Source of the DNA: a virus
DNA length: 21,295 bases
Reading direction: 5' to 3' (one strand)
Virus record (IMG/VR): IMGVR_UViG_3300032282_000982
Span: 1 to 21,295 of that record
The translations under genes and the position numbers were made by a program. This document shows positions 2,587 through 20,064 of the stretch, one piece after another. The notes below the pieces were generated by a model. The model ran no database searches, was not told the origin of the DNA, and was given only the letters and a program-made list of their open reading frames with translations. The first letter of the stretch is position 1. Each line of letters starts with the position of its first letter.

Positions 2587-2939
2587 CAGAAAAAGAATCA
2601 GTAAAAGTCTTGCGCGAATGTATCGAGCTTCAGCTCAAGAAGTCGCAAGACTATCAAAATCCTAACTCAAACGTAGTTCAAGCCATGCACTATCGTCGTG
2701 GCGTCGATACTATTCACGACACTCTTCAAGGTAAGTTGTATCGAGCTCAGTCTCTCCTTGAGTCTGAACGCTTCAATGAAGCTAACTTTGAGTCACTCGA
2801 AGATACGTACAAAGATCTCATCAACTACGCTTCGTTCGCAGTGTCTTGGATTCGTGGTCAGATGGAAGGCCAAGATCCTAACCGTGATATTTTTAATCGT
2901 AAGGTAGATAAAGATGCTGACAAGAAATCGCGTAAGTGA
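2583..2939 (+). CDS. Nmad1/DUF1599-like phage protein
   Basis: A 118-residue protein starting at GTG 2583, overlapping the upstream TGA and preceded by TAGGAG. It matches from memory the phage family with KKSQDYQNPNS near residue 20, a middle ending in KLYRAQSLLE, and NFESLEDTYKDLINYASF near residue 70. These are usually labelled nucleotide-modification-associated domain 1 or DUF1599. The family is linked by genome context to DNA-base modification, but its biochemistry is not established. The position immediately before dCMP hydroxymethylase fits. The C-terminus is very basic (KVDKDADKKSRK) and its coding sequence overlaps the next gene by 26 bases. Confidence 0.72.
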   Translation: MTEKESVKVLRECIELQLKKSQDYQNPNSNVVQAMHYRRGVDTIHDTLQGKLYRAQSLLESERFNEANFESLEDTYKDLINYASFAVSWIRGQMEGQDPNRDIFNRKVDKDADKKSRK

Positions 2940-3600
2940 CATCCGAGACGAGTTCCGGTTTCTTCTCGAGAACAAAGTCTATGTGACTGATAAGACTGGC
3001 GTCAAGATGCTTGAGATCGCCAGCGCGTCGTTCATCGCTGACGAGGAAGCAATCTTTGGTGAAGTCAATCGTGACTACGTATCTCGCGAGATCGCTTGGT
3101 ACAACTCTCAGTCACTAAGCGTCAATGATATTCCAGGTGGTCCGCCGACTATCTGGAAGCAAGTATCTGACGCTGATGGTATGATCAACTCCAACTACGG
3201 TTGGTGTATCTGGTCGAAAGCCAACGGTCATCAGTACGAGAACGTCAAGACTGAACTCTTGAAGAACCCTGAGTCTCGCCGCGCGACTATGATCTACAAT
3301 CGTCCTCAGATGTGGGTCGACTATCGCAACAACGGCCGTAACGACTTCATGTGTACTAACGCAGTTCAGTATCTCATCCGTTGCAACAAGCTACATGCGG
3401 TCGTTCAGATGAGATCAAACGATGTTATCTTTGGTTATAAGAACGACTACGCTTGGCAGAAGACTGTTCTTGACACGCTGTGTAACGATCTTCGTGAAAC
3501 TGAAGGTGGTTATGACATCACTCCCGGTAACATCTATTGGAACGCTGGTAGTCTTCATGTCTATGAGCGTCACTTCCATCTGGTGAATGATGTCCACTGA
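2914..3600 (+). CDS. 42: dCMP hydroxymethylase (T4 gp42-like)
   Basis: A 228-residue thymidylate-synthase-fold enzyme. The catalytic Cys147 lies in DFMCTNAVQY, as in T4 gp42 (Cys148), not in the PCH context of thymidylate synthase. The position that binds the pyrimidine N3/4 group is Asp178 in GYKNDYAW, where thymidylate synthases have Asn; the T4 enzyme has Asp179, which selects dCMP over dUMP. Other family blocks are SNYGW (93-97), RRATMIYNRPQMW (122-134) and the C-terminal NAGSLHVYERHF. It should convert dCMP plus methylene-tetrahydrofolate to 5-hydroxymethyl-dCMP in the cytoplasm, predicting hydroxymethylated phage DNA. The glucosyltransferase at 4385 supports this. ATG 2914 lies within the previous gene. 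Confidence 0.9.
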   Translation: MLTRNRVSDIRDEFRFLLENKVYVTDKTGVKMLEIASASFIADEEAIFGEVNRDYVSREIAWYNSQSLSVNDIPGGPPTIWKQVSDADGMINSNYGWCIWSKANGHQYENVKTELLKNPESRRATMIYNRPQMWVDYRNNGRNDFMCTNAVQYLIRCNKLHAVVQMRSNDVIFGYKNDYAWQKTVLDTLCNDLRETEGGYDITPGNIYWNAGSLHVYERHFHLVNDVH

Positions 3601-4063
3601 GTGGGATCTTCGCTACGTTAGTTTAGCTAAAGAGATCGGATCTTGGTCAAAAGATCCACGCACCAAAGTTGGTGCAGTCATAGTTGGTGATAAGGGTCAG
3701 ATCCTATCTCAAGGATACAACGGCTTCCCACGTGGTATCAAAGATACGGAAGACAGACTAACTGATCGACCGACTAAGTTGAAGCTCGTAGTTCACGCTG
3801 AAATGAATTGTATCTACAACGCTTCATTCACCGGAACTACACTTCAGAATTCTACTCTCTATGTTTATGGTTTACCCGTCTGCTCCGATTGTGCGAAGGG
3901 TGTGATTCAAGTCGGTATTAAAAACGTATTCATGTGTTATCCGGCTGATATCGATGAAAAGTGGAAAGACTCATTTAATGACACGGCGCAAATGTTTGAA
4001 GAATCAAAAGTCTCACACAAAAGTCTTAGTAGTGGGTATGAATCCTTCAGGTTATCACACTGA
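3587..4063 (+). CDS. cd: dCMP deaminase
   Basis: A 158-residue zinc deoxycytidylate deaminase, which makes dUMP for thymidylate synthesis. The zinc and catalytic motif HAE is at 70-72 and the CxxC pair is Cys99 and Cys102 in PVCSDC; the N-terminal SKDPRTKVGAVIV and the QGYNGFPRG substrate loop are typical. Start codons are tandem ATGs at 3587 and 3590, overlapping the end of the hydroxymethylase gene. The two enzymes draw on the same dCMP pool, so their adjacency suggests balanced hydroxymethyl-dCMP and dTMP supply. The last 25 residues (from about SKVSHK) extend over the start of the next gene in another frame and look less conserved. Confidence 0.93.
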   Translation: MMSTEWDLRYVSLAKEIGSWSKDPRTKVGAVIVGDKGQILSQGYNGFPRGIKDTEDRLTDRPTKLKLVVHAEMNCIYNASFTGTTLQNSTLYVYGLPVCSDCAKGVIQVGIKNVFMCYPADIDEKWKDSFNDTAQMFEESKVSHKSLSSGYESFRLSH

Positions 4064-4388
4064 AGATAAAGATCGTAAGAATCATACGTTTGATAGATTG
4101 AAGAAGTGGTTTACACACGCCGGTGTGGACTACTTCTCTTTTGTTAACTGCTCACATAAACTTGGTGAAGTTAAGTTTTGTGACGTTGACTATGACACGC
4201 TGTCTAAGTGTATCGATGGCAACCAGAAGATTGTAGCCCTAGGTAACTTTTCATCGACGGTTCTGTCAAGGCTAAATATAACGCATTTGAAATTGCCGCA
4301 CCCGTCTCCAAGAAATCGTATCTTTAACGATAAGTCTTATGAGCCGGAGATGCTCAAAGAACTTAAGAGATACGTGAGGTCGAGATGA
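3978..4388 (+). CDS. Uracil-DNA-glycosylase-superfamily-like protein
   Basis: About 136 residues. An N-terminal strand KVLVVG leads into GMNPSGY, resembling motif A of the MUG/TDG/UDG superfamily (GxNPG or GxNPS). The C-terminal half has LPHPSPRNR, resembling the HPSP DNA-intercalation motif. Length is short for the superfamily, like other phage versions. The start is uncertain: ATG 3978 has GGAAAG about nine bases upstream, while ATG 3954 and TTG 3996 are alternatives; all lie within the dCMP deaminase gene, giving an unusually long overlap (about 86 bases). A base-excision or modified-base-sensing role would suit a phage with modified cytosine, but no activity can be claimed. Its stop overlaps the ATG of the glucosyltransferase. 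Confidence 0.65.
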   Translation: MTRRKCLKNQKSHTKVLVVGMNPSGYHTEDKDRKNHTFDRLKKWFTHAGVDYFSFVNCSHKLGEVKFCDVDYDTLSKCIDGNQKIVALGNFSSTVLSRLNITHLKLPHPSPRNRIFNDKSYEPEMLKELKRYVRSR

Positions 4389-5620
4389 AAGTTACAATCA
4401 TTATGGGTAGAGGCATCGAGGGATGCGGTGTCTCTAAGTATACAGTTGAGATGACTAAGTGGCTTGAGAGAAATGGTCACGATTACACGATCATCGCTTC
4501 CAAAGATAAGACATGGTCTCGTAAAGATGCTCATTCGTTTAAGAACCTGATGCATCTGAAGTTCTCAGTTGATGAGAACATTGAGACGATCATCAATAAG
4601 TGTAATGAAGCAGACTTCGTTATAGTCAACTCGCTTCCATCTCGTAAGTATGGTGCTTCGAAGGGTCACGATCCTAAGGTCGGCATCAACTTTATTCGTA
4701 TCATCAACGAAGTAAAATCAAAGATTGTTCTCATCCAGCACGATCACAACAAGCTTTCAATCGTTCGCAACGACGGGTTGGAAGAGTATGTGAAACGTGC
4801 TGATGTTATTTTTGCGCACTCACCCGATGGTGACTTCGCCCGCGAAGTACAAAAGATGAATGGCACTTCTGGATTCATGTCATTCGTAGAAAACACCGAG
4901 CCACGTAAGATCATGAACTTCCAACCTGGAATGTACTTCGATGAAGTGCGTCAGAAGTATTGGAAACCCATCTCACAACAAGATAAGATGGTACATCGCT
5001 GGGTAGGTCGCACTACTTTTTGGAAGGGATTCGGACTCATGTTCGACTTCCACAACAACTACTTAAAGAACTCAGGTGCACTGACTGTACTCGAAGGAAT
5101 CGAGAAATCACCAGCTTACATCGACTTTAAGAATAGATTCGACTTCACACCTATGCTAGATAAGAACCCTGATAAAGAAGATCTCACGTCTCACTACGGT
5201 GATAAAGCGGTAGTCTTCTCGTTCTTTAAGAACGTAGAGTTGCTCGAGCGTATGTCTAAGTCTGGCTTCGGATATCAACTATCGTTGATGGATCCTCGAT
5301 TCATTGAACACTCGATCGAATACACACACTGTGAAGTTGCTGCAACCGGTTGTATCCCTGTGTTCCGTAAGGAGTATGGTGACGCTTGTAAGCACATCAA
5401 GCATGGCGATCCATTGAGTCAATGTAAAGATAGTGGCACTATCTGGTTGTCAGATAGTAACATGCAAGAATGCATGGACCTGATCACTCGCATAAATAAT
5501 GATGACAGCATGAGAGAAGATTGGCGTGAGAAAGCTTTCGAGTTTTATAAGTCACACCAAGATGCGTCTGTTGCTTTTGATAGATTGTTTAGTGATATTA
5601 GGAATGAATTGAATGTATAA
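4385..5620 (+). CDS. agt: DNA alpha-glucosyltransferase (T4 AGT-like)
   Basis: A 411-residue GT-B enzyme matching T4 alpha-glucosyltransferase (400 residues) along its length, judged from memory of the T4 protein. Shared blocks include MGRGIEGCGVSKYT at the N-terminus (T4 MARGLEGCGVTKFS), IQHDH with His119-Asp120 in the catalytic region, RADVIFAHSPDGDF, WVGRTTFWKGF (206-216), LEGIEKSPA, LLERMSKSGFGYQLS and the C-terminal IEYTHCEVAATGCIPVF. T4 AGT transfers glucose from UDP-glucose to 5-hydroxymethylcytosine in DNA, which protects it from restriction. Together with the dCMP hydroxymethylase this is strong evidence that the DNA is glucosyl-hydroxymethylated. It overlaps both neighbours by a few bases, consistent with one operon. 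Confidence 0.93.
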   Translation: MKVTIIMGRGIEGCGVSKYTVEMTKWLERNGHDYTIIASKDKTWSRKDAHSFKNLMHLKFSVDENIETIINKCNEADFVIVNSLPSRKYGASKGHDPKVGINFIRIINEVKSKIVLIQHDHNKLSIVRNDGLEEYVKRADVIFAHSPDGDFAREVQKMNGTSGFMSFVENTEPRKIMNFQPGMYFDEVRQKYWKPISQQDKMVHRWVGRTTFWKGFGLMFDFHNNYLKNSGALTVLEGIEKSPAYIDFKNRFDFTPMLDKNPDKEDLTSHYGDKAVVFSFFKNVELLERMSKSGFGYQLSLMDPRFIEHSIEYTHCEVAATGCIPVFRKEYGDACKHIKHGDPLSQCKDSGTIWLSDSNMQECMDLITRINNDDSMREDWREKAFEFYKSHQDASVAFDRLFSDIRNELNV

Positions 5621-8004: not shown

Positions 8005-8033
8005 TTTGAAACTACTATAACATGGAGTATATT

Positions 8034-8699
8034 ATGCAGAACATTAAGCTTGACAATCGTACCATCTCAGTGTTGAAGAACTTCTCAACGATCAACCCAT
8101 CGTTGCTCTTCACGCAGGGTAACATCCTTAAGACTCAGTCGCCAACATCTTCGGTGTTGGCGATTGCCACCATCAACCAGACATTTGACTCTGAGTTCGC
8201 GATCTATGAGCTTCCACGTCTCCTCGGCGTCATGTCTCTCTTCAAGGATCCTGAACTTCAGATCGGTGATAAGTTCCTTGTCATCAAGGACGATAGCTCA
8301 AAGAAAGTTAAGTATACTTTCGCCGACAAGGCAGCTATCATCTCGCCTAAGCCTGACGTCAAGATCAAGATGCCTGACACTCTGGCTGAGGTAAAGATCA
8401 CCGGCGAGATGTTGAATGACGTTCTTCGTGCTGCTGCTCTTCTCAAGCATCAGGACGTTGCGTTTATCGGTCGTGATGGTTCTATGACTCTCTCGACTAT
8501 CGACTCGACTGGCAAGAGCAAGGATACTTACGACGTCTCACTCGGTGAGACTGATAAGACTTTCCAGATCAACTTTAAACTCGATAGCTTGAAGTTCTTG
8601 CCCGGTGATTACGACGTCACGGTAGCGAAGGGTCTCGCTTACTGGGTCGGTGATCAGATCGAATACTACACGGGAGCTGAAACCAACTCCACGTTCTGA
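8034..8699 (+). CDS. 45: DNA polymerase sliding clamp gp45
   Basis: A 221-residue homologue of the T4 sliding clamp, a trimeric ring that tethers DNA polymerase to DNA and also activates late transcription in T4. N-terminal LKNFSTINPSLLF parallels T4 LKNFATINSGIML, FAIYELPRLLGVMSLF parallels VAIYDLNGFLGILSLV, and the C-terminal LPGDYDVTVAKG parallels QPGNYKLLLWAKG. ATG 8034 was preferred over the in-frame ATG 8022 because TGGAG (8023-8027) is spaced correctly for 8034. It is followed by gp44 and gp62, the clamp loader, in T4 order. Only a short gap separates it from gp44, so one transcript is likely. Confidence 0.95.
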   Translation: MQNIKLDNRTISVLKNFSTINPSLLFTQGNILKTQSPTSSVLAIATINQTFDSEFAIYELPRLLGVMSLFKDPELQIGDKFLVIKDDSSKKVKYTFADKAAIISPKPDVKIKMPDTLAEVKITGEMLNDVLRAAALLKHQDVAFIGRDGSMTLSTIDSTGKSKDTYDVSLGETDKTFQINFKLDSLKFLPGDYDVTVAKGLAYWVGDQIEYYTGAETNSTF

Positions 8700-8729
8700 C
8701 GTATTCTTTTTTTATTATGGAGTTGATTG

Positions 8730-9665
8730 ATGCAAAAGAATTTTTTGTGGGTGGAAAAGTATCGTCCGAAAAAAATCGACGATACTATTCTACCAGCCGA
8801 CCTTAAATCTACTTTTCAAAAGTTTGTAGCTGATGGTAATATTCCAAATCTTCTTCTCAGTGGTAGTGCTGGTGTTGGCAAGACTACAGTGGCTATGGCC
8901 ATGTTGGAAGAAGTCGGAGCGGAATACACCATCATCAACGGATCTATGAATGGCAATATTGACACACTCAGAAACGATATCTTACAGTTCGCATCATCGA
9001 TCTCGCTCGTCGGTGGACGTAAGTATGTCATCCTCGATGAGGCAGACTACCTTAACCCCAACTCTACACAGCCCGCACTCAGAAACTTCATGGAAGAATT
9101 CTCGCGGAACTGTGGCTTCATTCTCACTTGTAACTTCAAGAACAGAATCATTGAGCCGCTACATAGTCGTTGTTCCGTAATCGAGTTCAACATCGGTAAG
9201 AACGATAAAGCCAAGTTGGCTATGCAGTTCTTGAAGCGTGTAGAGAACATCCTCAGCATCGAGGGTGTCGAGTATGATAAAGCTGTAGTAGCTGAAGTAA
9301 TCATGAAACACTTCCCTGATTGGCGTCGTGTTCTCAATGAGCTTCAGCGCTACGCCGCGACTGGTAAGATCGACAGCGGCATCCTTGTCAACTTTGAAGA
9401 AGAGTCTTACAAGGGTCTCGTTGAGTTGCTTCGCGACAAGAACTTTACCGGCATGCGTAAGTGGGTTGATACTAATCCTATCGATCAGACTACGCTCTAT
9501 CGCAAGTTCTATGACACATCTGCTGAGTATATGTCACCTCAGGGTGTAGCACAACTCGTGTTGCTCCTAGGGCGTTACCAGTATCAAGCTGCGTTTGTCG
9601 CTGATCCTACTATCAACGTAGCTGCGTTCTTGACTGAGGTTATGATGAAGTGCGAGTTTGAGTAA
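8730..9665 (+). CDS. 44: Clamp loader ATPase subunit gp44
   Basis: A 311-residue AAA+ clamp-loader large subunit. Walker A is GSAGVGKTT (45-53), Walker B ILDEAD (101-106), and the SRC sensor/arginine-finger motif is 146-148 (HSRCSV). The N-terminal WVEKYRPKKIDD is the typical RFC/gp44 opening. With gp62 it opens and loads the gp45 ring on primer-template DNA using ATP. ATG 8730 has TATGGAG seven bases upstream; TTG 8727 is in frame but badly spaced. The stop overlaps the gp62 start (TAATG), which suggests coupled production of the two loader subunits as in T4. Confidence 0.96.
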   Translation: MQKNFLWVEKYRPKKIDDTILPADLKSTFQKFVADGNIPNLLLSGSAGVGKTTVAMAMLEEVGAEYTIINGSMNGNIDTLRNDILQFASSISLVGGRKYVILDEADYLNPNSTQPALRNFMEEFSRNCGFILTCNFKNRIIEPLHSRCSVIEFNIGKNDKAKLAMQFLKRVENILSIEGVEYDKAVVAEVIMKHFPDWRRVLNELQRYAATGKIDSGILVNFEEESYKGLVELLRDKNFTGMRKWVDTNPIDQTTLYRKFYDTSAEYMSPQGVAQLVLLLGRYQYQAAFVADPTINVAAFLTEVMMKCEFE

Positions 9666-10039
9666 TGGCTTACGACTGGCGTTACGAGAACAGCATCAAC
9701 TACACCAAAGAGTATCAGGATCCGGATAACAACGAGCATAAGTACTCAGCTTGGAGAACTAACTCGTCGTTATCCCTCCACTCCGACACGGTCTTATACG
9801 CTAACGAGATGAATATGCTCCATCATCTCGATAACAAACCTCAGTACGACTACCTCTTTTTCTCTATCAGAAAGAAGAAACGATTCGCCAAGCGGGAGAA
9901 ACGATCCGAAGACGTTAACTTTGACTTAATTCAGCAACACTATAAATATAATAACGAACGTACGAGAGAGGCTCTAAAGATCCTCAGCGAGGCACAGATC
10001 GATATTATACGACAAAAAGAAGAAAAAGGTGGAGCATGA
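9665..10039 (+). CDS. 62: Clamp loader small subunit gp62
   Basis: A 124-residue protein resembling the short gp62 of T4-like cyanophages: TKEYQDPDN, then SLSLHSDTVLYANEMNMLHHLDNKPQYDY read in two blocks (about 35-63), a basic SIRKKKRFAKREKR segment and a C-terminal ALKILSEAQIDIIR helix. It is shorter than T4 gp62 (187 residues) but lies in the gp44-gp62-regA order. It has no ATPase motif and acts as the non-catalytic loader subunit. An internal TATAAATA at 9941 encodes part of HYKYN and is probably not a late promoter. Its stop overlaps the RegA ATG. Confidence 0.88.
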   Translation: MAYDWRYENSINYTKEYQDPDNNEHKYSAWRTNSSLSLHSDTVLYANEMNMLHHLDNKPQYDYLFFSIRKKKRFAKREKRSEDVNFDLIQQHYKYNNERTREALKILSEAQIDIIRQKEEKGGA

Positions 10040-10434
10040 ATTTAGTAGATACGTTAATTGAGGTGAGGATCGCAGAAGAAGAAGACTTTCTCAAGATCAA
10101 AGAGACCCTAACTAGAATCGGGGTTGCCTCTCGCAAAGACCAGAAACTCTATCAGTCTTGCCACATCCTGCACAAGCAGGGCAAGTACTACATCGTCCAC
10201 TTTAAAGAGTTGTTTGCTCTGGATGGTAAGCCATCAGACTTCACCGTAGAAGACAAGGGTCGTAGAAACACGATCATCCAGCTTCTCGAAGAGTGGGGTC
10301 TCATTAAGGTAGTTGAACCGGAGAAGATCTCCGATCCAAAAGCACCTATGAGTCAAGTTAAGATTCTTCCTCACAAGGAGAAAGCTAACTGGACGCTTGA
10401 AGCTAAGTACAACATTGGTAGAAAGAAAAAATAA
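10036..10434 (+). CDS. regA: RegA translational repressor
   Basis: A 132-residue homologue of T4 RegA (122 residues), an RNA-binding protein that represses translation of early phage mRNAs by covering their start regions. The N-terminal EEDFLKIKETLTRIGVA matches T4 PEDFLKVKETLTRMGIA, and LYQSCHILHKQGKYYIVHFKEL is nearly the T4 sequence (residues about 36-57), which I note in two parts. The C-terminus WTLEAKYNIGRKKK extends T4 WKLVPKYTIGN with lysines. It follows gp62 as in T4, but the expected downstream DNA polymerase gene is not next. It probably autoregulates the clamp operon. Confidence 0.96.
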   Translation: MNLVDTLIEVRIAEEEDFLKIKETLTRIGVASRKDQKLYQSCHILHKQGKYYIVHFKELFALDGKPSDFTVEDKGRRNTIIQLLEEWGLIKVVEPEKISDPKAPMSQVKILPHKEKANWTLEAKYNIGRKKK

Positions 10435-12150: not shown

Positions 12151-12203
12151 CTATCTACAGTCGAAAAAGCTGTATTAGTCAAAACAACATGGAGTATGTG
12201 AAT

Positions 12204-12455
12204 ATGCATAATACAAAGACAGACGCCCTCATCGAAGCTTTCGAGTCGGGCAAGGAACTCACTGCCGCGCAGATCTCTGCTCGTTATGGCGTCGCTAATC
12301 CGACTGCTTCCATCACGGGTCTCCGCAAGGCTGGCTACGCGATCTACTTGAACAACCGCAACGGTGTCTCAAAGTATCGTCTCGGTAAGCCCACGCGTAA
12401 GATGATCGCTGCTGGCTACGCAGCACTCGGTGCCGAAGGCGCTGGTCTCGTTTAA
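12204..12455 (+). CDS. Winged-helix/HTH domain phage protein
   Basis: An 83-residue protein with a helix-turn-helix core: KTDALIEAFESGKELTAAQI, SARYGVANPTASITGLRKAG as turn and recognition helix, and a beta wing YAIYLNNRNGVSKYRLG. The C-terminal RKMIAAGYAALGA is typical of the short wHTH proteins of T4-like cyanophages. ATG 12204 has GGAG (12191-12194) at nine bases; the in-frame ATG 12189 would place the Shine-Dalgarno inside the gene. It has its own strong promoter and is followed by an 11-bp stem, so it is probably a highly expressed monocistronic regulator. The target is unknown. Confidence 0.8.
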   Translation: MHNTKTDALIEAFESGKELTAAQISARYGVANPTASITGLRKAGYAIYLNNRNGVSKYRLGKPTRKMIAAGYAALGAEGAGLV

Positions 12456-12469
12456 TTAAACTAAAAAAA

Positions 12470-12494
12470 GGGCGGAGAGACGGTCTCTCCGCCC
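12470..12494. terminator. 11-bp perfect stem-loop with A-tract on left
   Basis: GGGCGGAGAGA (12470-12480) pairs perfectly with TCTCTCCGCCC (12484-12494), loop CGG. The + strand has no T-tract after it (TAAATAAA), while seven A's precede it, so as an intrinsic terminator it faces the - strand. On + transcripts it may instead be an mRNA 3' stabiliser or processing boundary before the tRNAs. Confidence 0.5.
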
Positions 12495-12524
12495 TAAATA
12501 AACTGCTGTTTGACATTTGAATAT

Positions 12525-14866: not shown

Positions 14867-14954
14867 GGGGAGTTGGCCGAGTGGCTGAAGGCACCTCACT
14901 GCTAACGAGACATACCGAAAGGTATCATAGGTTCGAATCCTATACTCCCCGCCA
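14867..14954 (+). tRNA. tRNA-Ser(GCT)
   Basis: Acceptor GGGGAGT/ACTCCCC, anticodon loop CTGCTAA (GCT), long variable arm ATACC-GAAA-GGTAT, T-loop TTCGAAT, G73, encoded CCA. One A-C mismatch closes the anticodon stem. Confidence 0.95.
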
Positions 14955-14966: not shown

Positions 14967-15040
14967 ATCGGTGAAGTGTTACGGAAGCACATCGGTCTCC
15001 AAAACCGAGAGCGTGGGTTCGACTCCTACCACCGGTGCCA
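14967..15040 (+). tRNA. tRNA-Trp(CCA)
   Basis: Acceptor ATCGGTG/CACCGGT with one T-G pair, anticodon stem TCGGT/ACCGA with loop CTCCAAA (CCA), T-loop TTCGACT, G73 (Trp identity), encoded CCA. Confidence 0.9.
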
Positions 15041-15055
15041 CTCAAGGATTTTTTT

Positions 15056-16402
15056 ATGTTCTCTAAAGCAACGTTTTGTACGTTACCGTGGTCGACTATC
15101 TTAATCACACCATCGGGTGACTTTAAAGTATGTGCTTTTACCGGTAACGAAAGAACTACAAAAGATTCTGCTACAGATCATGGAATTGGTTTAGATGATA
15201 ATGGTGTAGTCATGAACATCATGACACATTCTATCAAAGATGCTATGAACAGTCATCTTCATAAATCAATTCGTCTTGCACAATCTAAAAATGAAAAGCA
15301 TCTATCATGTAGAGTGTGTTGGGATAAAGAAGAATCTCATGTACGCTTCATGAAGTCTGGTGCTAATTACGATGGTGTACAACCTAGAAACTTATCACAT
15401 CGTATAGGGCAGAGCTTCGCTAAGTTAAATGAATATGAAGGCGTAATCAATATTGAAGATGCACCTAATGTTATAGATAAAGATGGTAGTATCGATAATC
15501 TTCCTATTCATTTGGATATAAGATTTAGCAATCTTTGTAATTCTAAGTGTATCCAATGTAATCCACAATATAGCAACATGTGGTATTCAGACCACATAGC
15601 TTTATCTGGTTCCAATCAGTTTATGATGGGACCGGCGAAGTATACGATTAGAGCTGAGGGAAATAAATTAGTATCTGACATGCCTAAGTGGCATGATACT
15701 CCTCAGTGGTGGGATCAGTTTGATCTGATTAAATCACGACTTCGTAAATTGTACATCACTGGTGGTGAACCATTTCTTCAACCTTCTCATGAAGAGATGT
15801 TAGATAGGTTGATAGCTGGCGATCATGCTAAAGATATTAATATCTCATACGATACTAATCTTATGGCGATCAATGATCGCGTTATGAATAAGTTAAGTAA
15901 CTTTAAGTCAGTAAAGTTTGGCATAAGTATAGATGACACAGAGAAGAGATATGAACTAATCAGATTCCCAAGTAGTTGGAATAAACTCCAAGCTAACATG
16001 GAAAAGATTAAAGCATATAGCAACTTAAGTATCTTACTCTCTTCATGCATAGGTATATTTGATATATACGCACCATTTAGAATGTCTAAACATTTCGAAT
16101 CTTTAGGCTACAAGAACTTTACGTATCATCTCGTTCATTGGCCACGTTTGTATGATATTAAATATCTGCCATCTGATGTTAAGAAGAAGATCATTGATCG
16201 ATATAATGAGTCTGATCTAGCGACAGTACATAAGTCAGTTGTGGTAGGTTACCTGAAAAATAATATGAACGTCCCAGAAGAGCAATGTAAAAAGGTGATA
16301 AATCTTTTTATAGATAGAATGGATAAGCTCGACAAACTACGTGGCACTGACTGGAAAGAAACTATGCCAGACGTTGTCGAACTTCTAAAAGATTATTTGT
16401 GA
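15056..16402 (+). CDS. Radical SAM protein with N-terminal twitch-like domain
   Basis: A 448-residue radical S-adenosylmethionine enzyme. The CxxxCxxC cluster motif is Cys161, Cys165 and Cys168 (SNLCNSKCIQCNP), followed by the SAM-binding GGEP at 236-239 (YITGGEPF). The N-terminal 90 residues hold CTLPWSTILITPSGDFKVC and a second pair in CRVCWDKEE (Cys85, Cys88), resembling the twitch/SPASM-like auxiliary region of phage radical SAM proteins, here placed before the barrel. Substrate is unknown. ATG 15056 has AAGGA seven bases upstream and follows tRNA-Trp by 15 bases. The gene is visibly AT-richer than the clamp and modification genes, suggesting separate acquisition. It forms a cassette with the oxygenase and unknown gene that follow. 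Confidence 0.85.
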   Translation: MFSKATFCTLPWSTILITPSGDFKVCAFTGNERTTKDSATDHGIGLDDNGVVMNIMTHSIKDAMNSHLHKSIRLAQSKNEKHLSCRVCWDKEESHVRFMKSGANYDGVQPRNLSHRIGQSFAKLNEYEGVINIEDAPNVIDKDGSIDNLPIHLDIRFSNLCNSKCIQCNPQYSNMWYSDHIALSGSNQFMMGPAKYTIRAEGNKLVSDMPKWHDTPQWWDQFDLIKSRLRKLYITGGEPFLQPSHEEMLDRLIAGDHAKDINISYDTNLMAINDRVMNKLSNFKSVKFGISIDDTEKRYELIRFPSSWNKLQANMEKIKAYSNLSILLSSCIGIFDIYAPFRMSKHFESLGYKNFTYHLVHWPRLYDIKYLPSDVKKKIIDRYNESDLATVHKSVVVGYLKNNMNVPEEQCKKVINLFIDRMDKLDKLRGTDWKETMPDVVELLKDYL

Positions 16403-16970: not shown

Positions 16971-17714
16971 ATGTTTACATTCTTTCATCGTAAGACAAAG
17001 ATAACTCTTGACTGCTTCACTATGATGAAGCCGGCGTATGAGTATACGCCAATCGTTCGAGCTTCAAAAACGTTTCCACAGTGGTGGAAAGATCTACCTG
17101 AAGTAGGACCGTTGACTAAGCAAAACGATGTGTGGGCTTTTGATAGTAACATGAAGAAGTGTTACGGGTTTCTTGAGCTCTATAAGCGTGGTGCAGTCAT
17201 TGAGAACTGGTGTGATTTATTCGTCAAAGTTTATCCAGAAAATTATGAGTATCATGTAAGCACCGGCGAGAAGCCAACAGCACATAAAAGAATAGAGTTT
17301 CTCGGTGGCTTCAACGACTATCATCACTTGAAACATTTGAGTCCTTGGCATATAAGAGAGAAGTCTGGCGCCCATTTCATGTTCATGGGTACCGAGTGGT
17401 CTAACGAGTTGCCCATCAAGATGATGCCAGGTGTCGTTCAGTACAGACATATCACCGGTACTCACATCAACATGATGCTTCCTAAGTATAAAGAACCGTA
17501 TGAGTTCACACTTAAGTTGGGTACACCACTCGTTCATATAGTTCCACTCATCGATGATATAAAGCTTGAGATTAAGAATCATCTAGTATCTGAAGATGAG
17601 ATGAAAAAGATAGGTCTCTGGGGTGGTATCTCATATGACGGTGTTAGAGGCTTAGAGAGAGTATGGAACAGGAATCAGGAACGGAAAAGTAAGTGCCCGT
17701 TTGGTTTCGGGTAA
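16971..17714 (+). CDS. Unknown protein linked to radical SAM/oxygenase genes
   Basis: A 247-residue soluble protein with no signal peptide or membrane helix. The N-terminus has ITLDCFTMMKPAYEYTPIVRA and then FPQWWKDLP; Trp and aromatic residues recur (SPWHIREKSG, MGTEWSNELP), with HIVPL and KIGLWGG near the C-terminus and a final KCPFGFG. I recall similar hypothetical proteins in phages that also carry radical SAM and 2OG genes, but know no function. ATG 16971 has AGGA at 16961-16964. It lies directly after tRNA-Gly, in the same AT-rich stretch as the radical SAM gene. An AATAAATA late-promoter-like motif overlaps its stop. Confidence 0.72.
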   Translation: MFTFFHRKTKITLDCFTMMKPAYEYTPIVRASKTFPQWWKDLPEVGPLTKQNDVWAFDSNMKKCYGFLELYKRGAVIENWCDLFVKVYPENYEYHVSTGEKPTAHKRIEFLGGFNDYHHLKHLSPWHIREKSGAHFMFMGTEWSNELPIKMMPGVVQYRHITGTHINMMLPKYKEPYEFTLKLGTPLVHIVPLIDDIKLEIKNHLVSEDEMKKIGLWGGISYDGVRGLERVWNRNQERKSKCPFGFG

Positions 17715-17720
17715 TAAATA
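17713..17720 (+). promoter_or_regulatory. Possible late promoter AATAAATA
   Basis: AATAAATA matches the NATAAATA type of T4-like late promoters. It overlaps the preceding stop codon and lies 65 bp before ATG 17785 of the barrel protein. Confidence 0.4.
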
Positions 17721-17784
17721 GATCATGATAGTTTAGTTATGAGTCTGATGATTAAAAGATTATCAAATCATAACGGAGACAATC

Positions 17785-19641
17785 ATGAGAAAGATATTAG
17801 CAGCGCTCGTTGCGCTGATTGCATTTGTATCACCTGTATTAGCTGACCAAGCTCTTATCATTGATGCTGGTTATAGTAATGTTACACAAAATGTTAAAGG
17901 TCGTCTTGAGGCCGCCGGTCACACAGTCACTGTAACATCAGATGTATCCACAATTCCGATGGGAACTGGTTCATACCAACAGGTGTGGGATCTAAGATAT
18001 TCAGCTGCTCTAACTTCCGGTGAGCAGACAAAATACCAATCATTTATTACAAACGGTGGTTTTGCTTATTTCGTGACTGAGAACCCAGGATGCTGTATGG
18101 CACGTAACAATTCTGTTGCTGCTCTCGTTACAGCATTAGGTGGTGGTTCAACGCAGATTGGTCCAGGCTGGGCAAATAACGTTGAGACCAATCTGAACAC
18201 TACTTACATGACCAATGGTATCACCGTTAACTACGCGGCGGTTGCTGCTATCGTAAACAGCCAAGGTATCCCACTCATCTCTGACGGTTCAGGTGCAGTG
18301 TCTGGTATGTCTTGGATCGGTCGTGCCGGTGCACTTGGTCAAGGTGTTACTGGTACCATCATTACCGTAGCTGACACTAACTGGTTAGATCAATCACGTT
18401 TCGTAGTCGGTGGTACGACTGCACAACAACAAAACGTACAAGCACTTGATGATATCATTAGGGGTGTTGTCGCCGGTACAGTCGGTGGAACAATTAGTGC
18501 GGCCGGTAACGGTGCTGCTGCTTCTAACGGTGCCGCTCAGCAACAACAACAGCAGCAAGCTCCACCTCCAGTTACACTCGTAAGTTCTGCACCTGGTCAG
18601 AGCACGGTAACTTCAACGACCGCTTATGGTAACGCTACAGTTACTAACCAAGTAGTTGATGCAAGCACAAAGAGTGGTAAGAGCTTGACTGTGTCAAGAA
18701 CAACTACACCCGTTACAGTTACACCTTACACAGTGACTAATGTAACTACACCGACTACAGTTAATACGTATAGTGATAACTCAACTACGACTACTAATGG
18801 TACACCTGTAACAACGACAACTTCAGGTGACGTCATCACCGTTGGCCAATCAACGACTGATTCAAAAACTATCTCAGCTTCTGCAACTGCAGACTCCATC
18901 AAAGCTAAGAATATGAATCTATTCTTGATCGATCCTCTGTCACAGAATGATGGAACATGGGCGACACCTTACGCTAGTTACATCTCATCAGTTGGTAACT
19001 ATCGTATGCACGGTGGATCGTTTGGTTGGCAGAAGACTGTCGATAACAACTCGTTTGGTATCGCCGGTAATATGATCTATGGAAAAGCTGGCAACCAACC
19101 GGGTTCACAGTCTGACTCAGAGTCTTACTCGGGTAATATGTACTTGCTAACTAAGCAATCGTTAGCTTGGTTGAAAGCGGTAGTCGGATATAGCTCGACG
19201 GATCAAAGAACTACGACTAGCATTCCAGAGTTTGCGATGTCAAATAGTTCTAAAGTTCGTCAGAACAACTACTACGCAGATCTCGGTGCTTACTCGGCCG
19301 GCACACTCTATGGCATCAGAGCGGTCGGTGGAGCTATCATAAACTATAGCACTCTGAATGCTACTGAGTTTGGTTCACCTTTACTTTCTACTCTACCTGA
19401 AAACGGTGGAACGACTAAAGTATCACCTTACTTCGGTGCTAGATATGAGTTTCAGAAAGCTTCTTTTGAGACTCGCATGTATACAAACACTGAGTATAAG
19501 AACGTTGTGACTAACAAAGCTTCTATTAACCAAGAAGTAACCAAGAACGTATTCATTAATGCGACTGTCGGTTACGATAAAAGCTTTAGTGAGAAGTATA
19601 ACAACACTTATGGAACTTTAGGCTTGAGAGTAGCATTTTAA
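17785..19641 (+). CDS. Secreted protein with autotransporter-like beta-barrel
   Basis: A 618-residue protein that appears exported to the outer membrane. It has a Sec signal (residues 1-20, cleavage after VLA), an N-terminal alpha/beta domain (21 to about 235; ALIIDAGY, then a TSGE...FVTENPG region with Cys103-Cys104), a linker with a seven-Gln run (252-258) and PPP, and a Thr/Val-rich repeat-like stalk (about 275-365). A C-terminal region of about 245 residues shows alternating polar/aromatic strands and ends GLRVAF, the terminal Phe being the BAM recognition signature. The layout of signal, passenger, stalk and barrel is that of autotransporters. ATG 17785 has CGGAGA upstream. It is unusual for a phage; receptor masking or host-surface alteration is inference. 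Confidence 0.75.
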   Translation: MRKILAALVALIAFVSPVLADQALIIDAGYSNVTQNVKGRLEAAGHTVTVTSDVSTIPMGTGSYQQVWDLRYSAALTSGEQTKYQSFITNGGFAYFVTENPGCCMARNNSVAALVTALGGGSTQIGPGWANNVETNLNTTYMTNGITVNYAAVAAIVNSQGIPLISDGSGAVSGMSWIGRAGALGQGVTGTIITVADTNWLDQSRFVVGGTTAQQQNVQALDDIIRGVVAGTVGGTISAAGNGAAASNGAAQQQQQQQAPPPVTLVSSAPGQSTVTSTTAYGNATVTNQVVDASTKSGKSLTVSRTTTPVTVTPYTVTNVTTPTTVNTYSDNSTTTTNGTPVTTTTSGDVITVGQSTTDSKTISASATADSIKAKNMNLFLIDPLSQNDGTWATPYASYISSVGNYRMHGGSFGWQKTVDNNSFGIAGNMIYGKAGNQPGSQSDSESYSGNMYLLTKQSLAWLKAVVGYSSTDQRTTTSIPEFAMSNSSKVRQNNYYADLGAYSAGTLYGIRAVGGAIINYSTLNATEFGSPLLSTLPENGGTTKVSPYFGARYEFQKASFETRMYTNTEYKNVVTNKASINQEVTKNVFINATVGYDKSFSEKYNNTYGTLGLRVAF

Positions 19642-19644
19642 TAG

Positions 19645-19673
19645 TTTACTTCCTCTCTCCATTGTGGTATAAT
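19645..19673 (+). promoter_or_regulatory. Promoter TTTACT-17-TATAAT inside inverted repeat
   Basis: -35 TTTACT (19645-19650), 17-bp spacer, -10 TATAAT (19668-19673). The -10 lies in the loop of the 14-bp inverted repeat 19651-19694, so transcripts starting near 19680 lack the left arm. Confidence 0.6.
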
Positions 19674-19694
19674 TATCTTTCAATGGAGAGAGGA
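19651..19694 (+). repeat. 14-bp perfect inverted repeat covering the RBS
   Basis: TCCTCTCTCCATTG (19651-19664) is the exact reverse complement of 19681-19694, with a 16-nt loop. The right arm contains the Shine-Dalgarno GGAGAGAGGA of the gene at 19696. In a read-through transcript the hairpin would hide it; in a transcript from the internal promoter it would be free. Confidence 0.8.
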
Positions 19695-19695
19695 T

Positions 19696-19926
19696 ATGTC
19701 TGCACAAATCATTAGCTTTCCCATAGAAGCTGATCAACTTACTATCTGTGGCGAACAAGTAAAACGACCTTACACTAAGAGTGACTACCTTAAGATCGTT
19801 AAAAGGTTCTTGACAGAAGAAGACTACAAAGATATTTGTGTAGGTATCTTAGATCATAAGCACTTCGAGACTCTCGGTAAGTCTCTCCAGAAGATAGTCT
19901 GGGCTTACATGTCTTACGAATCATAA
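19696..19926 (+). CDS. Small phage protein under RBS-hairpin control
   Basis: A 76-residue soluble protein starting at ATG 19696. It has a short N-terminal beta part (QIISFPIEADQLTICGEQV) and a helical remainder (YTKSDYLKIVKRFLTEEDYK, then HFETLGKSLQKIVWAYMSYE). I do not recognise the family. Its expression signals are striking: own promoter with a perfect -10, and a ribosome-binding site that upstream transcripts would fold away. This matches the logic T4 uses for gene e and soc, so timing of this protein seems to matter. Confidence 0.68.
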   Translation: MSAQIISFPIEADQLTICGEQVKRPYTKSDYLKIVKRFLTEEDYKDICVGILDHKHFETLGKSLQKIVWAYMSYES

Positions 19927-19928
19927 GA

Positions 19929-19936
19929 TATAAATA
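19929..19936 (+). promoter_or_regulatory. Late-promoter consensus TATAAATA
   Basis: Exact match to the T4 late promoter -10 octamer, in intergenic sequence 33 bp before a 31-codon membrane peptide and about 160 bp before the porin gene. Confidence 0.5.
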
Positions 19937-19968: not shown

Positions 19969-20064
19969 ATGAAATATAGTGAGTTACTATGGGTTTTTAT
20001 TATGTGTAACTGGATGGCAATAACCGCAGGGATTACTGCACTCGCCATTCACTATTTGAATTGA
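19969..20064 (+). CDS. Very small membrane peptide (31 aa)
   Basis: A 31-codon frame from ATG 19969 to TGA 20062-20064. The peptide is hydrophobic over most of its length (LLWVFIM, then MAITAGITALAIHYL) and would span the membrane once. The Shine-Dalgarno is poor (TTAGAG about seven bases upstream). It is placed between a late-promoter consensus and the porin gene. Position, hydrophobicity and absence of another feature make it plausible; chance cannot be excluded at this length. Confidence 0.4.
   Translation: MKYSELLWVFIMCNWMAITAGITALAIHYLN

Follow-up and report, generated by a model that had tools for sequence, protein, structure and literature searches.

The locus and its phage context

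The window, by which we mean the entire stretch of DNA analyzed, is a 21.3-kb virus record from IMG/VR (IMGVR_UViG_3300032282_000982) that carries a gene for an autotransporter-like protein (Table 1). The product begins with a putative Sec signal peptide (MRKILAALVALIAFVSPVLA, followed after the cleavage mark by DQ), continues with an alpha/beta passenger, a linker reading QQQQQQQAPPP and a Thr-rich stalk, and closes with a predicted barrel whose last residues are LGLRVAF (F618), bearing out the layout that an initial annotation had read from the sequence. Full-length relatives with 65-86% identity are found in other viral contigs, and these, along with purifying selection and the Phe that ends every complete family member (62/62), argue that the gene is not a chance ORF.

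The same record encodes gp45, gp44, gp62 and regA in the order seen in T4, which upholds the earlier assignment to a T4-like phage. Among cultured phages, the closest clamp loaders belong to Stenotrophomonas phage DLP6 (62.5%) and the Methylophilales phage Melnitz (60.7%); hence, judged by its core genes, the window comes from a T4-like phage that has no close relative in culture, and its host is presumably Gram-negative. Elsewhere in the window there is a peptide deformylase gene (398-871) and, at 2914-5620, genes for a thymidylate synthase-like protein (possibly a dCMP hydroxymethylase), a dCMP deaminase and an alpha-glucosyltransferase homolog, a set that suggests glucosylated modified DNA in this phage. 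Also present are a gene, unusual for a T4-like phage, for a 455-residue radical SAM protein with a SPASM domain (15035-16402; late-type ATAAATA at 14954) and a G+C-rich inverted repeat (12469-12495), whose arms match perfectly over at least 12 bp around a short loop; it lies directly 3′ of the ORF at 12189-12455 and is probably a terminator.

The late-promoter-like motif that had been noted upstream of the autotransporter gene is indeed present, with ATAAATA at 17714, about 65 nt 5′ of the start codon, and it recurs across the family: ATAAATA or TATAAAT precedes 24 of 54 family genes as against 5.7% of random segments, a figure to be read as an enrichment and not as a strict test because the loci are related to one another. 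The motif is absent from a group of loci in which the gene is linked to TerL. At the other end of the gene, a hairpin follows directly in many members. In the window its loop contains TATAAT (19668-19673), a sigma70-type -10 element, and the next gene's ribosome-binding site forms its 3′ arm; the same element occurs in at least six relatives (L002:7854, L009:5337, L047:3697, L062:6564, L072:6757 and L082:6857), with stems that differ in sequence between phages while the pairing is kept. The hairpin looks like a switch silencing the next gene on read-through messages: these would hide its ribosome-binding site in the hairpin, and transcripts initiated in the loop would leave that site accessible. 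The arrangement at T4 e and soc is the mirror image of this logic. Together, the late motif and the closing hairpin suggest that the autotransporter gene is a stand-alone unit that is probably expressed late.

The product of the second outer-membrane barrel gene has relatives with 33-36% identity in Ochrobactrum and Sinorhizobium phages, and an OMP_b-brl gene lies close to the autotransporter gene in about 10 loci. In the window it is preceded by a late-type motif (TATAAATA at 19929) and, between the motif and the gene, by a 31-codon ORF (19969-20064) for a small membrane-type peptide.

Table 1. Positions of the autotransporter-like gene, its parts, the adjoining elements and the T4 core genes
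Feature	Position	Strand	Basis or remark
gp45	8022-8699		T4 core gene
gp44	8727-9665		T4 core gene
gp62	9665-10039		T4 core gene
regA	10036-10434		T4 core gene
T4-type late-promoter-like motif AATAAATA	17713-17720	+	Sequence
Shine-Dalgarno GGAG	17775-17778	+	Read from sequence, 7 nt 5′ of ATG
Autotransporter-like gene	17785-19641	+	ORF, 618 aa; relatives in other viral contigs
Putative Sec signal peptide, residues 1-20	17785-17844	+	Sequence and family heuristic
Passenger A (residues 21-243): alpha/beta, strongly conserved, with invariant vicinal cysteines	17845-18513	+	
Q/P-rich linker	18514-18576	+	Sequence; length differs among members
Thr-rich beta stalk, residues 265-364	18577-18876	+	AlphaFold2 strands
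Helix directly before barrel, candidate pore helix, residues 367-377	18883-18915	+	AlphaFold2
Predicted 12-strand translocator barrel ending in Phe	18952-19638	+	AlphaFold2, Foldseek, family terminal Phe
Hairpin directly after stop codon	19651-19694 (region 19645-19696)	+	z -5.2 and -6.2
Second outer-membrane barrel gene, 183 aa	20093-20644	+	Pfam OMP_b-brl, 1.2e-12

The predicted anchor

The initial annotation had taken the protein for an outer-membrane protein of the autotransporter type and called for structure prediction of a 10-12-stranded barrel. Run on an alignment of 22 sequences, AlphaFold2 gives the stalk and barrel a mean pLDDT of 87, placing the Thr-rich stalk strands first, then the helix, and then 12 long strands (residues 390-617), a strand count that agrees with the range named initially and, like the strand order, matches classical autotransporter translocators. 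When the barrel is compared with the PDB using Foldseek, the nine top matches are all autotransporter translocators, with NalP in first place (5.8e-10) and EstA, Hbp, BrkA, AaaA and AIDA-I among the others; ordinary porins rank below these and superpose much worse. In the Pfam scan, the window protein has no match to PF03797, the curated cut-off of which is passed by another member of its barrel family (L086) and by the different barrels of three loci that carry the same passenger (L006, L007 and L029). Its connection to PF03797 is thus supported by the modeled structure and the family link, with its own score lying below the cut-off. Scans of the window protein with Pfam, PHROGs and NCBIfam gave nothing useful, a match to Cep192 at 0.03 was dismissed as due to chance, and the stalk-barrel profile retrieved no convincing sequence match from the PDB. 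The export signal is a family-wide trait, with 56 of 57 members passing a signal-peptide heuristic that is passed by 93 of 594 other ORFs (16%). Taking together the predicted structure, the PF03797 match of family members, and the family-wide signal peptide and terminal Phe, we consider the outer-membrane reading sustained, and the protein very probably has the display architecture of a classical, type Va-like autotransporter.

Passengers and their exchange

At least six kinds of passenger (A to F) are found on the same stalk-barrel, behind the same kind of signal peptide. Passenger A is that of the window protein; the others are B (NLPAGS...TNLLTNGGFD), C (DYSLSASGW...), D (ITSAKFSTAQIFDVQW), which is often in tandem with a C-like domain, E (VYNSIATAYVTTTISQ), and a sixth kind, F, seen, for example, at L068. 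No Pfam family matches any of them, and the profiles of A, B and E found no convincing sequence match in the PDB. At matched syntenic loci, neighboring genes are 79-94% identical and the passengers are different in kind: L038 (passenger C) and L020 (passenger A) share 87% identity in TerL and 86% in the portal protein, while L018 (A), L065 (B) and L068 (F) have a flanking gene that is 90-94% identical. The converse, passenger A on other barrels, is the case in L006, L007 and L029. Judged from these comparisons, the passenger swaps with conserved neighbors are an allelic cassette exchange.

Alignment A3 of passenger A displays 77-94% identity and a large number of invariant polar residues, among them ENPGCC, RNNS and QVWDLR. 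The median identity is 82% for this passenger and 52% for the anchor, and 169 of 171 pairs have the passenger as the better-conserved part; in bacterial autotransporters it is more often the anchor that is better conserved. Both passenger A and the anchor are close to saturation at synonymous sites, and passenger dN is about 0.04-0.2 with a dN/dS of about 0.1; this pattern of substitution rules out recent transfer as the cause of the conservation and shows strong purifying selection keeping passenger A. Passenger B is comparably conserved (86% mean column identity). With the passenger fixed and the anchor free, whatever passenger A does would have to be common to many hosts.

The model of passenger A reaches a pLDDT of 58, its second half being without a confident model. 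In fold, the alpha/beta N-terminal half weakly resembles a ThuA-like protein, flavodoxins and the N-terminal domain of IFT52; the best match (4jqs, 8.2e-4, TM 0.33) is marginal and was obtained with this weak model. The sole sequence homolog of passenger A found outside phages is a PEPxxWA-CTERM protein from Polymorphobacter (29.5%), and passenger C is similar to part of an autotransporter-associated repeat protein from Novosphingobium (37%). These homologies are distant at the sequence level; nevertheless, they suggest a kinship of both passengers with bacterial domains that are exported or surface-located. The ThuA-like and flavodoxin-like matches raise the alternative of a surface enzyme, in which a hydrolase-like passenger would trim glycans or another polymer on or around the infected cell, and the numerous invariant polar residues and the low dN/dS would be in keeping with this. 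However, beyond the marginal nature of the fold match, no conserved Cys occupies the site of the class I GATase nucleophile, the vicinal Cys pair is missing from the Polymorphobacter homolog, and the other passengers show no enzyme family, and we regard an enzymatic role as unlikely.

In IMG/VR, passenger A occurs at 26 loci and the stalk-barrel at about 60. The barrel gene is present in 10 of 13 long records tested, the remaining three being L006, L007 and L029 with another barrel, and the T4 capsid protein gp23 is encoded on 9 of 14 records tested. In a second phage group, the autotransporter gene adjoins a TerL, portal and protease module, indicating that the family crosses phage lineages. 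Genes for 2OG-Fe(II) oxygenase-like proteins and a GATase/BPL_N-like gene recur directly beside the autotransporter gene in many loci (e.g., L019:4181-4888, L020:2262-2864 and L024:262-1011). One phage group has the gene between tail-fiber-like genes and TerL, and the exchange of passengers recalls that of receptor-binding domains, both of which would be compatible with a virion protein, either a tail fiber or a decoration, in place of a host-membrane protein. Yet a fiber is ruled out by the signal peptides, the 12-strand membrane barrel and the terminal Phe, and these, with PF03797 in sister proteins, make any virion role very improbable.

A tblastn search of 50,697 INPHARED phage records with three members as queries recovered no family member. 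Thus, the earlier statement that such proteins are rarely seen in T4-like phages holds for cultured phages but not for uncultured ones, in which about 60 contigs carry them. A scan of 84,980 GTDB genomes with two pairs of peptide patterns turned up no relative; it needs exact words of 7-8 residues and hence excludes close homologs only. Plasmids offered nothing beyond 29.5% identity for passenger A. Close relatives from uncultured phages are present in BFVD, where they are automatically named “Autotransporter beta-domain containing protein,” and we found no description of such phage autotransporters, their passenger exchange or their regulation in the open-licence literature. The family is apparently a widespread and undescribed one of phages. 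The initial annotation had also entertained a host gene in transit, which we take to mean a bacterial gene recently picked up by the phage of the window. While passengers A and C do have distant bacterial homologs, the occurrence on some 60 viral contigs from several phage lineages, the purifying selection, the phage-type late motif and the lack of a close homolog in the GTDB pattern scan or on plasmids point instead to a resident phage family, and make such a recent acquisition most improbable.

Possible role and comparison with known systems

We propose that the gene is a late autotransporter cassette that provides an adhesin-like coat for the infected cell, an overall explanation that we hold at about even probability. 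In this scheme, the gene would be transcribed late, the signal peptide would direct Sec export, and the host BAM would insert the 12-strand barrel, with the C-terminal Phe as the signal. The globular passenger and its Thr-rich stalk would then cross the barrel and stay held outside the infected cell, where the passenger would act as an exchangeable ligand-binding module. Such a coat would stick the infected cell or its remains to glycans, exopolysaccharide or other cells, and this stickiness would place the burst near new hosts. Several features lead us to favor an adhesin-like role: the passengers are exchanged as modules, borne on a stalk, late-looking and near-constant across distant phages, and A and C have kin among bacterial surface-type domains. 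That the displayed passenger adheres or binds is something we infer only tentatively from these features. Few adhesins would be expected to be as conserved as this passenger, a degree of conservation that might fit an enzyme, and the low pLDDT of the passenger model, its marginal fold match, the lack of a Pfam family for any passenger, the distance of the bacterial homologies and the PF03797 score of the window barrel likewise count against the overall explanation.

The display could alternatively serve as a receptor shield, with the passenger covering or occupying the phage receptor (LPS or an outer-membrane protein) and thereby causing superinfection exclusion. This would exclude competitors and stop progeny from sticking to the debris of lysed cells. 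T5 Llp acts on FhuA in this way and sets a real precedent on both counts (PMC9586334); the surface display predicted by AlphaFold2 and Foldseek and the adjoining second outer-membrane protein gene would both be consistent with it. Exclusion proteins, however, are usually early (PMC9586334), whereas the motif here is of the late type; further, passenger A is near-identical across distant phages, whose receptors should differ, and acting on a neighboring protein needs no stalk. Hence, we consider a shield doubtful.

Returning to the adhesin-like coat, it is possible, at somewhat less than an even chance, that lytic phages more generally carry a dedicated set of stand-alone late cassettes in which conserved passengers are swapped at fixed loci on one anchor family, reprogramming the stickiness of the infected cell. 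Lysogenic conversion and small exclusion proteins are the usual frame for the effects of phages on the host surface. That a modular display family is common among T4-like phages would imply that the exterior of the infected cell is deliberately rebuilt late in infection, which would affect adsorption, aggregation and the site of the burst. If so, cassette display would give phages a new level of control over the infected-cell surface, exerted outside the virion.

Among known systems, the type Va autotransporters with PF03797 (NalP, EstA, Hbp, BrkA and AIDA-I) have in common with the window protein the signal peptide, the N-terminal passenger and, as modeled, the helix and 12-strand C-terminal barrel ending in Phe. 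In contrast to these bacterial proteins, the window protein is encoded on a lytic-type phage behind a T4-type late motif, carries a globular alpha/beta passenger on a Thr-rich stalk, has a passenger far more conserved than its anchor, and possesses a barrel below the PF03797 cut-off. Phage proteins bearing the autotransporter beta-domain name are already in the databases, as three entries from uncultured Caudovirales phages (A0A6J5R861, A0A6J5L9T3 and A0A6J5KUW0) whose name is an automatic annotation only; their stalk-barrel is the same by structure, and identity is 47% for A0A6J5R861 and 38% for A0A6J5L9T3. T5 Llp, a small lipoprotein, and lambda Lom, a small barrel, are phage-made and located in the host outer membrane, as is predicted for the window protein, but are without a displayed passenger domain. 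Finally, the YadA-like domain proteins of cyanophages also come from T4-like phages and carry an autotransporter-related name, but they have been described as virion structural proteins with YadA (trimeric) domains (PMC9146016), as distinct from the monomeric type Va display predicted for the window protein.
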